Source: Methylococcaceae bacterium (GTDB lineage: Bacteria > Pseudomonadota > Gammaproteobacteria > Methylococcales > Methylomonadaceae). From it: a stretch of 64,000 bases of DNA. The stretch spans positions 1 to 64,000 of the forward strand of contig DAOUSN010000006.1 of NCBI GenBank assembly GCA_030627205.1, written 5' to 3'. Positions 24,999-58,480 of the stretch are shown in pieces. Position 1 is the stretch's first letter. Every line of letters begins with the position of its first letter. Below the pieces are notes generated by a model. It searched no databases and had not been told where the DNA came from. It saw nothing but the letters and a program-made list of their open reading frames with translations. The translations under genes and the position numbers were made by a program.

Positions 24999-25208
24999 TC
25001 ATCCATTAAGCGAGGTTTCTAAACGTTTAATTTCATCGGCTTTTAATTCAAATAAAGCATAAACTTTTTTATTAATCTCGTATTCTAAGCGTTTAATTTC
25101 GGTGGTGAATCCTAGCCATGCTTGTTGTTCGCTTAAAAATTTTTTCCATGTCATTTGTTCGCTTGGGTCATTTAGATCAATACTGCGTAACATCAGTAAT
25201 GAATTCAT
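24999..25208 (-). CDS. small hypothetical protein (69 aa)
   Basis: ORF with SD-like GGAG upstream on the minus strand (ggagaatggattatg). Confidence 0.5.
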   Translation of the reverse strand: MNSLLMLRSIDLNDPSEQMTWKKFLSEQQAWLGFTTEIKRLEYEINKKVYALFELKADEIKRLETSLNG

Positions 25209-25317
25209 AATCCATTCTCCTTTTCATATAACAATATAATATACTGAGATGTATAGATTTATACAGTAATTTTAAAAAATCACAATAATTAATTTAAATA
25301 TAACTGTGGGCTACGGG

Positions 25318-25346
25318 TTGACAAATAAAAATTCAAAGGGTATCCT
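25318..25346 (+). promoter_or_regulatory. sigma70-like promoter of the P4-like immunity leader
   Basis: TTGACA (25318-25323), 17-nt spacer, TATCCT (25341-25346). Confidence 0.65.
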
Positions 25347-25400
25347 GCTCCTAACTTCAAAAATATTTAAAGTTACCTGATTTCATTATCAGGGCTGGTT

Positions 25401-25422
25401 TAGAACTTCAGTCAAATACAGG
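25401..25422 (+). promoter_or_regulatory. upstream antisense-target-like site (P4 seqA analogue)
   Basis: TAGAACT (25401-25407) and ATACAGG (25416-25422), both complementary to single-stranded segments of the 25482-25557 RNA. Confidence 0.6.
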
Positions 25423-25429
25423 TGCATGT

Positions 25430-25460
25430 AAGCGCATTATTTTAGTTACGCGCTTTTTTT
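25430..25460 (+). terminator. intrinsic terminator in the leader (P4 t1 analogue)
   Basis: AAGCGC-attattttagttac-GCGCTT followed by T tract. Confidence 0.7.
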
Positions 25461-25481
25461 ATGCCTAAAATTTACCCTTAT

Positions 25482-25557
25482 GGTGGGTTGTTTTAGAGAC
25501 CTTTGTGGTCGCCGTATCCTGTATCTCGGTAGTTCTAATCTAATTCAACCTACCACC
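25482..25557 (+). ncRNA. C4/CI-like phage immunity antisense RNA
   Basis: Outer stem GGTGG+GTTG with CAAC+CCACC (3-nt bulge), inner hairpin GACC-TTTGT-GGTC, exposed segments TCCTGTAT (25517-25524) and AGTTCTA (25531-25537) complementary to flanking sites. Confidence 0.75.
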
Positions 25558-25563
25558 CGTATC

Positions 25564-25600
25564 TAGAACTTACAGGGGTAGCTTAAAATTTAATACAGGA
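25564..25600 (+). promoter_or_regulatory. downstream antisense-target-like site (P4 seqC analogue) overlapping the ribosome-binding site of the HTH gene
   Basis: TAGAACT (25564-25570) and ATACAGGA (25593-25600) complementary to the C4-like RNA; AGGA lies 8 nt before the ATG at 25609. Confidence 0.65.
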
Positions 25601-25608
25601 AAAACATC

Positions 25609-26355
25609 ATGAGCTTTAAAGCTATAAATTGGGCATTCAAACAAAGCCCTAACAAACCCATTCAAAAATATCTTCTTATAATTCTTGCTTATCGTGTAGA
25701 TGATAATTATCAGTGCTATCCATCAATCAGTTGTATTGTAAAAGATACAGGCATGGGACGTAGAACTATTCAAACACATTTACGTGATCTATTGGATCAG
25801 GGATTCATTAAAATCAGTGGGCGCGTTAGCTCATCAAATGTTTATACTTTGTGTACTGATAATGCGGAAACAACTGGAGACAAAGAATCTTCATTTTTTC
25901 AGCTCGGTAGTAAAAAAACCGCACCTCCTCCATGCGAACCACGCATACAGAATAAGTCAATTAATCTTTCTTTTCTCTCTACTAAAAAATCAACAACAAT
26001 ACCCCCGTTAGATAACTTTACCGCTGAGATGAAAGCAGCTTATAACTGGGCAAAAACCGAACCTTTCTGGTCGCCAAAGATAGAAAAAATAAGCAATTTT
26101 ATTCGTTATTATACTACTGGCGACCTTAAGAATCAGTATCTTAATATTTTAAATAAAAAAAGAAAAAAGGTGAATTATCCAGAGAAGAGAGCCTATAACG
26201 GACAAAAAACTGACATTCGACCATGGGATCAAAAACCTAAAGAAATTGATAAATTCACTAATTTAAGTCATTTTCAAATGCTGTTTAAAAAATTCGGGGA
26301 TACTGCTTTAGCTGGCATCCCCATTGAATATCATTCACAATTGTTAGTTACATAG
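25609..26355 (+). CDS. helix-turn-helix (HTH_36-like) DNA-binding protein, phage/plasmid type
   Basis: NYQCYPSISCIVKDTGMGRRTIQTHLRDLLDQGFIKISGR winged-HTH pattern; SD AGGA. Confidence 0.75.
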   Translation: MSFKAINWAFKQSPNKPIQKYLLIILAYRVDDNYQCYPSISCIVKDTGMGRRTIQTHLRDLLDQGFIKISGRVSSSNVYTLCTDNAETTGDKESSFFQLGSKKTAPPPCEPRIQNKSINLSFLSTKKSTTIPPLDNFTAEMKAAYNWAKTEPFWSPKIEKISNFIRYYTTGDLKNQYLNILNKKRKKVNYPEKRAYNGQKTDIRPWDQKPKEIDKFTNLSHFQMLFKKFGDTALAGIPIEYHSQLLVT

Positions 26356-26421
26356 CCATTAGATTTTATCCAGCACAACAAGATAATTTACTTAAAAATA
26401 CCAAATTGAGTGGTCTGGTTA

Positions 26422-27510
26422 TTATTTTAAAGTGGGCAAACCTGATACAACACCATTGTTTTGTCCTCGGTGACGTAAAAAATGATCCATAATTATAATT
26501 GCCATCATTGCTTCTGCAATTGGTGTCGCTCTAATACCTACACAAGGATCATGTCTACCTTGAGTGATAACATCAATAGCTTCATTTTTAGTATTAATAC
26601 TCCGTCCTGATAATCTTAGGCTTGAAGTTGGTTTTAAAGCAATGCTCGCCACAATATTTTGCCCACTGGAAATACCGCCTAATATTCCCCCTGCATGATT
26701 ACTTAAGAATCCTTTAGGGGTAATTTCATCCCTAAACTCAGTGCCCTTGCTATTAATACAATCAAAACCATCGCCTATTTCAACCCCTTTTACCGCATTA
26801 ATACTCATTAACGCCTGCGCTAAATCGGCATCTAAACGATCAAAGATAGGTTCACCTAAGCCCGCAGGAACATTACTAGCTATTACCTTAATTTTTGCGC
26901 CAATCGAATTACCTTCTTTGCGAAGAGCATCCATATAATCACAAAGTTCTTGTTCTTTACTAACATCAGTTGAAAAAAAGGCACTTTTTTCTCTATCCAC
27001 CCAATTAACTAATTTCAATTTTATTGGACCTAATTGAGATAAATAACCTCTAATTTGAATATCAGCAATTTCTTTTAAATATTTTTTTGCAATTGCACCT
27101 GCGGCAACCCGCATTGCAGTCTCTCTAGCAGACGAACGCCCACCACCACGGTAATCTCGAAAACCATATTTAGCTTGATAAGTAAAATCAGCATGTCCAG
27201 GTCTAAAAGTTTCAGCTATATCAGCATAATCTTTAGAGCGTTGATCGGTATTTTTAATTAATAAACCGATAGGTGTTCCTGTGGTTTTACCTTGAAAAAC
27301 ACCAGATAATATTTCAACTTTATCTGCTTCACGGCGTTGAGTTGTGTGTCTTGAAGTACCTGGTTTTCTGCGGTCTAAATCAAGCTGAATATCAGCTTCT
27401 GAAAGCAACATTCCCGGAGGACAGCCATCAACAATGCAGCCCAAAGCAATACCGTGACTTTCACCAAAACTAGTCACAGTGAATAATTTTCCTATTGTAT
27501 TTCCAGACAT
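26422..27510 (-). CDS. aroC: chorismate synthase
   Basis: [63 protein letters not shown]. Confidence 0.98.
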
Positions 27511-57613: not shown

Positions 57614-58480
57614 TTATTCCTTATTAAGAAATTGAGAAATTATTTTCTCATCTAAATTAGTTACTTGAGCAATGGTTTTTATATCAAATCCTTGTTTTAA
57701 CATTTTTATGGCAATTTCAGAGTTACCTTTTTTAACTCCTTTTTTAACTCCTTTTTTAATTCCTTTTTTAACTCCTTTTTTAACTCCTTTTTTAACTCCT
57801 TTTTTAACTCCTTTTTTAATTCCTTTAGTTTCAATTTCATCTGAATTGAACTCTTCAATCATATTATATTTTTCAGCAGGTGAAATATCATTTTCTTCAA
57901 TATGTGCAATAATTTTTTGGATTTCAGGTAAATGATAATTAGATTCGTCAACCATTCCTTTTAAACTATCATCAATAACTTGTAGCCATTCACGATAAAG
58001 TTCAGGGGTTTTATTATTTAAATATTTAGGACATAAATAAATAATTTTATGAGGAATTTCATTGAGTGAATTTCCCTCTAAATCTTTAGGATCAAAATCA
58101 ATAATAGAAACATCACGTTTATGTTTATCACCTGAGGTTAAAACGACAATAGTATAAACTCCTAAAGGCGGACGATAATTGGATGCGCTTTTGATTTGTT
58201 GGACTAAGGCAATACAATGATAATATAAAAAACGATCATAATGGTCAGTATGACGTTCATGTTGAATATCAACAATAATTCGGTTTTTTTTATCTTCAGC
58301 ATATAAATCAAATTTTATTTCAACGTCACCAACTGTTGGTTTAAATGATTTTTCAGTTTCAACGGTGTCAATTTCTAAATTAATTCCGATAATGTCTCGG
58401 ACAAAACCTTTAAAAACATCGACATCACAAAAGGCTTTTTTAAAGATAACTCCATAACGTAATGGGGCTACTTTTTTCAT
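57614..58480 (-). CDS. Rpn family recombination-promoting nuclease / PD-(D/E)XK nuclease-transposase family protein
   Basis: GVIFKKAFCDVDVFKGFVRDIIG, EIKFDLYAEDKKNRIIVDIQHERHTDHYDRFLYYHCI, C-terminal KKGVKKG repeats. Confidence 0.88.
   Translation of the reverse strand: MKKVAPLRYGVIFKKAFCDVDVFKGFVRDIIGINLEIDTVETEKSFKPTVGDVEIKFDLYAEDKKNRIIVDIQHERHTDHYDRFLYYHCIALVQQIKSASNYRPPLGVYTIVVLTSGDKHKRDVSIIDFDPKDLEGNSLNEIPHKIIYLCPKYLNNKTPELYREWLQVIDDSLKGMVDESNYHLPEIQKIIAHIEENDISPAEKYNMIEEFNSDEIETKGIKKGVKKGVKKGVKKGVKKGIKKGVKKGVKKGNSEIAIKMLKQGFDIKTIAQVTNLDEKIISQFLNKE
57725..57820 (-). repeat. 12-bp coding tandem repeat, 8 units encoding (V/I)KKG
   Basis: Eight contiguous units of cctttttta-act/att on + strand; units differ at few positions. 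Confidence 0.95.

Follow-up and report, generated by a model that had tools for sequence, protein, structure and literature searches.

What does a C4-type antisense RNA control when it stands with a single gene among the housekeeping genes of a bacterial chromosome? RNAs of the C4/CI type are known from a few phages, and many bacterial chromosomes carry such RNAs. The question is raised here by a locus of about 1 kb at positions 25318-26355 of the window, the 64-kb stretch of Methylococcaceae DNA analysed as a whole. The initial annotation had read it as an isolated P4/P1-type immunity locus controlling an HTH gene, and had taken it for a degenerate satellite or a domesticated switch. We conclude with high confidence that the locus is a C4-type switch acting on the downstream gene, here called rep. 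It is also probable that a complete C4/CI-type switch directly targets this one O-like replication initiator, the two forming a solo, dispersed cassette that selection maintains and that does not belong to a prophage. Repeated copies and selection support the cassette, and we hold this combined claim less firmly than the regulatory one.

At the centre of the locus, positions 25476-25560 of the forward strand encode a C4 antisense RNA of family RF01695, which scores 54.2 bits against the curated cut-off of 45 (E 1.2e-7, whole 64-kb window) and is the sole Rfam match in the window. Its predicted fold has the structure of the family (MFE -28.8 kcal/mol, z -4.0) with two loops, b' (TCCTGTAT, 25517-25524) and a' (AGTTCTA, 25531-25537), and a GGT at 25482 occupies the expected 5' position of the presumed RNase P site. 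Double-sided changes affect 20 of the 27 pairs in the consensus structure of 30 C4 RNAs, and the covariation among homologues extends to the outer stem. The C4-like folded RNA that the initial annotation had proposed from the sequence is borne out.

The RNA lies within an ordered set of forward-strand elements, of which the promoter, site A, the t1-like stem with its T-tract and site C are where they had first been placed. A putative sigma-70-type promoter (25318-25346) consists of TTGACA at 25318, a 17-nt spacer and TATCCT at 25341-25346; a consensus promoter scan is by itself not significant (7 found versus 5.2 expected), and the promoter forms the left edge of a core conserved in three species. 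Alignment and fold show an imperfect palindrome just 3' of it (25353-25376, AACTTCAAA..TTTAAAGTTAC), which is kept in all copies and could be a leader stem-loop or an operator. Next comes site A (25401-25422), the equivalent of seqA or a1b1, composed of TAGAACT (25401-25407) and ATACAGG (25416-25422). It is followed by a t1-like intrinsic terminator (25430-25460) conserved in the same-genus genomes G001 and G005, whose stem (AAGCGC at 25430-25435 and GCGCTT at 25450-25455, then a T-tract) is not listed by a consensus terminator scan because its 14-nt loop exceeds the limit of that scan. Site C (25564-25600), the equivalent of seqC or a2b2, lies beyond the C4 RNA and combines TAGAACT (25564-25570) with ATACAGGA (25593-25600). 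It covers the Shine-Dalgarno sequence AGGA (25597-25600) of rep, the ATG of which is at 25609. The 7-mer pair also occurs inside rep (25745 and 25761); it is not conserved in the homologue, and we treat this candidate third target site as probably due to chance.

Either 7-mer on its own is common, occurring at 12 places each on the two strands of the window, so the evidence for pairing has to come from the arrangement, a permutation test, loop/site covariation and duplex energies. For the permutation test, the longest exact complement between the loop region of each RNA and its own upstream or downstream flank was compared with that obtained after swapping flanks, using 34 C4 loci of this genome and of related ones. 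The own-flank sums were 256 on the site A side and 261 on the site C side, against 221 and 213 for the best of 5000 permutations. Duplex energies predicted for the window RNA are -21.7 at site A and -19.2 at site C, values equalled in 4 and 14 of 1000 shuffles, respectively. The homologues in G005 and G001 retain the architecture as well as the a' loop AGTTCTA and its sites, and the b' loop varies jointly with both of its sites: TCCTGTAT faces ATACAGGA in the window, CCTTTGC faces GCAAAGG in G005 (with one G-U in site A), and CCTTTTTT faces AAAAAAGG in G001. Permutation test and covariation together rule out chance complementarity; the RNA loops match both flanking sites, as had been claimed, and both sites are conserved.

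The gene under this RNA (rep, 25609-26355, forward strand, 248 aa) had been described as an HTH protein in the position of P4 kil. The HTH part of this description stands, as the product matches the winged-helix family HTH_36 (PF13730) at 4.7e-11. It is neither a kil equivalent nor a regulator, and family and fold searches instead identify it as a predicted phage O-like replication initiator. The product matches many PHROG replication-initiation families (best phrog_1032, 3.6e-19), and in its AlphaFold model, of moderate confidence overall (mean pLDDT 67), a disordered linker joins a well predicted winged helix (residues 1-84) to a helical C-terminal part. Foldseek against viral models returned phage HTH and replication proteins, one of them being the putative replication protein O of phage Min27; a PDB fold search gave generic winged-helix matches only. 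This organization, an N-terminal HTH_36 winged helix followed by a linker and a helical C-terminus, is that of the O-like initiators of lambdoid and podovirus phages (PHROG 1032, 6643 and 391); unlike these, rep has no phage around it and lies directly under a C4 RNA. Initial scans of viral sequences and of genomes found nothing, and no close phage or plasmid relative of rep was found, similarity being N-terminal only (26-43% identity; one N-terminal match in IMG/VR at 45%). There is no iteron array in 25200-26450, and no convincing terminal inverted repeats, tandem repeats or iterons were seen at the element.

Substitution patterns indicate that the rep protein is under purifying selection, both between species and between the two copies in this genome. 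By Nei-Gojobori estimates, the window gene and its G001 homologue differ by dN 0.24 and dS 1.25 (ratio 0.19). The window gene and the copy on contig C29 of the same genome differ over their last 72 codons by dN 0.006 and dS 0.16 (ratio 0.04), that is, by about six synonymous changes and one replacement (binomial p = 3e-4). Selection on the protein argues against a dead remnant and also against a purely RNA-based function. With an intact regulatory anatomy, a selected gene and more than one copy, the term 'degenerate' is not supported for this locus.

By analogy with the phage systems, we infer promoter activity, RNA processing, two modes of repression and immunity in trans. RNA polymerase starting at 25318 would produce a leader that includes site A and t1 as well as the C4 RNA. 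The C4 RNA would then be excised, as it is by RNase P in P1/P7. The a' and b' loops of the released RNA would pair with sites A and C of later transcripts. Pairing at site A would favour termination at t1, whereas pairing at site C would mask the Shine-Dalgarno sequence of rep, such that no initiator is made and the untranslated RNA is exposed to Rho. In trans, the C4 RNA could silence an incoming replicon with matching sites.

The isolated setting of the window copy is confirmed by a family search of its neighbours, which include genes for phosphatidylserine decarboxylase, an LRR/GTPase-like protein, mtaB, aroC, hemJ, crp, coaBC and a phosphoglucomutase/phosphomannomutase-like protein (pgm), with dnaA about 15 kb away. 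The ORF list of the window has no recognisable phage neighbour, and no integration gene was found at the locus. A 69-aa ORF on the reverse strand (24999-25208) is similar to type IIG restriction-modification enzymes over their C-terminal ~50 residues (PADLOC E 2.7e-4) and looks like a truncated C-terminal stub of such an enzyme; its start adjoins the left edge of the duplicated unit described below. Relatives gave no clean empty site for the mtaB-aroC interval, because gene order differs there and the two genes are not adjacent (far apart in G001; on separate contigs in G005 and G003). All assemblies are draft metagenome assemblies whose contigs tend to end inside the element, and a mis-join across a repeat is possible in the window contig.

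While the locus stands alone among housekeeping genes, it is neither unique nor degenerate, since C4 RNA plus rep recurs at unrelated chromosomal sites. In this genome, contig C29 starts with a second copy of the 3' end of rep, and what remains on contig C32 is a 5' piece with the promoter region, after which transposase-like sequence begins. G001 carries an intact unit as well as a 3' remnant, and G005 carries a single 5' end plus two 3' ends that differ from each other. All copies adjoin different genes, namely those for an acyltransferase and YceI in G001, and for RdgC/L,D-transpeptidase, a GGDEF protein and pyrG in G005. The conserved core begins at the -35 box and stops where rep ends, giving a unit of ~1.04 kb in the window. 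Copies of the same genome share slightly more: ~90 bp left of the promoter in the window and C32, and ~45 bp past the stop codon in the two G001 copies. Same-genome comparison places the left extension common to the window and the C32 remnant at 25228-25299 (forward strand, 92% identity), and the duplicated unit thus reaches at least to 25228. A weak DNA match in G004, located within an ATPase-like gene, was disregarded.

The C4 matches in the six genomes of the genus are all of two kinds, C4 plus rep and C4 plus a short KilA-N or AntA gene. The latter type, also solo, is present in four of the six genomes. Its cassettes lie in G000 (contig C31, L084 1-550), G002 (C194, L123 1600-2203) and G003 (C87, L122 374-1013), with two tandem units in G005 (C17, L121 4007-5149). 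They likewise span the -35 box to the end of the gene, their genes have dN/dS ratios of 0.16-0.34, and the flanks read are mostly host genes, some contigs being short or ending beside the cassette. C4 RNAs were found in 40 of 101 related genomes, and among the genes examined immediately 3' of them are antirepressors of the Bro-N and KilA-N types, AlpA, RadC and small ORFs of unknown function. The combination with an initiator also occurs outside the genus, elsewhere in the family: G213 (L087 6809-8146) has a C4 RNA, an 81-aa leader ORF overlapping the start of rep, and rep itself beside a MobC gene, and in G226 (L088) a C4 RNA precedes an O-like initiator in an element bearing AlpA and Rha. 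A C4-controlled initiator is therefore a recurrent design of mobile elements, and the peculiarity of the present case is its isolation.

The immunity region of phage P4 runs in the order PLE, seqA, t1, CI RNA/seqB and seqC, followed by the kil...alpha operon. The window locus has its promoter, site A, terminator, C4-fold RNA and site C in this same order. In P4, the CI RNA pairs with seqA and seqC, and transcription ends prematurely ahead of the replication genes (PMC4825925); here, too, a single RNA is complementary to both sites, and the proposed outcome is silencing of a replication gene. Unlike P4, the locus contains no kil, eta or alpha, its initiator comes first and is O-like, and int, psu, sid, delta and alpA are missing from the ~1.04 kb that stand alone. 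P4-like satellites are recognised by co-localised int, psu, delta, sid, alpA, epsilon and alpha with at most two missing (PMC8628076), a set that the locus does not carry. It does carry a CI-type RNA with seqA and seqC equivalents, and this C4-type RNA is the one P4 component found at the locus; 'P4 satellite' is not supported. The wider reading as a P4/P1-type antisense-RNA immunity locus holds, given the C4 match, the stem covariation and the conservation of both flanking sites. PICMI minimal phage satellites are similar in being very small chromosomal elements with a replication gene, but they carry int, alpA and a primase and occupy a fixed position next to fis (PMC10803314), none of which is found here. 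With the core genes absent, we rejected a P4-like or PICMI satellite.

In phages P1 and P7, the C4 RNA of immI is processed by RNase P and its b' loop occludes ribosome-binding sites (PMC5320573). As in their c4 - icd/ant region, the RNA has a' and b' loops, and the gene that comes first downstream has its ribosome-binding site overlapped by the b' site. The targets differ, being icd/ant in P1/P7 and a replication initiator here, which is not an antirepressor; the C4 plus KilA-N/AntA type of this genus is closer to P1 than C4 plus rep.

We favour the view that the cassette began as the regulated replication module of some phage, satellite or plasmid and now maintains itself and spreads on its own, although this is the weaker half of our interpretation, and we rank such a selfish cassette above defence, addiction or a relic. 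That the C4-plus-one-gene cassettes of the genus, with an O-like initiator or KilA-N/AntA, are a class of selfish elements of ~1 kb spreading through chromosomes without an integrase, phage or helper gene of their own is a tentative and rather unlikely proposal. If true, they would count among the smallest known mobile replicon units with self-immunity.

An unlikely alternative, yet the best of the competing ones, is a domesticated host defence in which the C4 RNA is retained for blocking, in trans, phages or plasmids of related type, with the gene serving as no more than a passive reporter target. C4 systems do confer superinfection immunity in P1/P7 (PMC5320573), and the two C4 RNAs of this genome differ in loop specificity. 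In Acinetobacter baumannii, C4-like RNAs are multicopy and expressed, and the Group 1 RNAs resemble those of this genus in having many chromosomal C4-fold copies with variable loops; these were described as sRNAs with unknown targets (PMC5320573), whereas the copies here are single-gene cassettes with both sites and a selected gene. It is this selection on the protein as well as the RNA that a passive target would not explain. Moreover, no phage or plasmid record with a close rep relative was found, and the exact 31-nt C4 pattern has no match in viral contigs.

We consider it improbable, and less credible than defence, that the locus is a decaying prophage or satellite, the last immunity and replication piece after deletion of the rest. 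The solo setting, the fragments in C32 and G001, the neighbouring restriction-modification stub and a KilA-N copy in G005 broken by a stop would all suit such decay. However, the minimal unit has identical edges at several unrelated sites in three species, loop and sites co-evolve, rep is selected even between the two copies of this genome, and Terminase_6N, the one terminase family searched, was found in none of the six genomes of the genus and in 6 of 14 control genomes. Least plausible is an addiction pair of the RNA-antitoxin kind, in which an unscheduled initiator (or KilA-N/AntA) is harmful, the C4 RNA is its antidote and the pair persists selfishly: dispersed copies of a single gene with its antisense RNA, both selected, and the same layout for KilA-N/AntA would fit, but no toxicity is known, O-like initiators are not known toxins and nothing indicates a lower stability of the RNA relative to the protein.

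The locus places a C4 RNA in a position to act directly on a replication initiator. Given that a complete switch accompanied by just one selected gene is found repeatedly, and in genomes in which Terminase_6N was not found, orphan C4 RNAs become testable as defence systems, addiction modules or minimal mobile elements. The exchangeable loop/site pairs also offer a ready set of orthogonal RNA switches.

Some minor observations concern the surroundings of the copies. Palindromes of the sequence TTCCCAAGCTGGAGCTTGGGAACGAGAC, possibly a REP/MITE-like repeat, flank several rep-unit copies in G005 (contigs C6, C74 and C113; L079-L081). About 490 bp of short CCAAAG-type tandem repeats lie beside the G001 copy (L077 9314-9823), and GACCCCTTTGGT repeats interrupt the G001 3' remnant too. 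The window itself has a PD-(D/E)XK transposase-like gene at 57614-58480 (reverse strand), relatives of which lie beside the C4-KilA-N cassette of G002 (L123 627-1454) and upstream of cobS/mtaB in G005 (contig C89).
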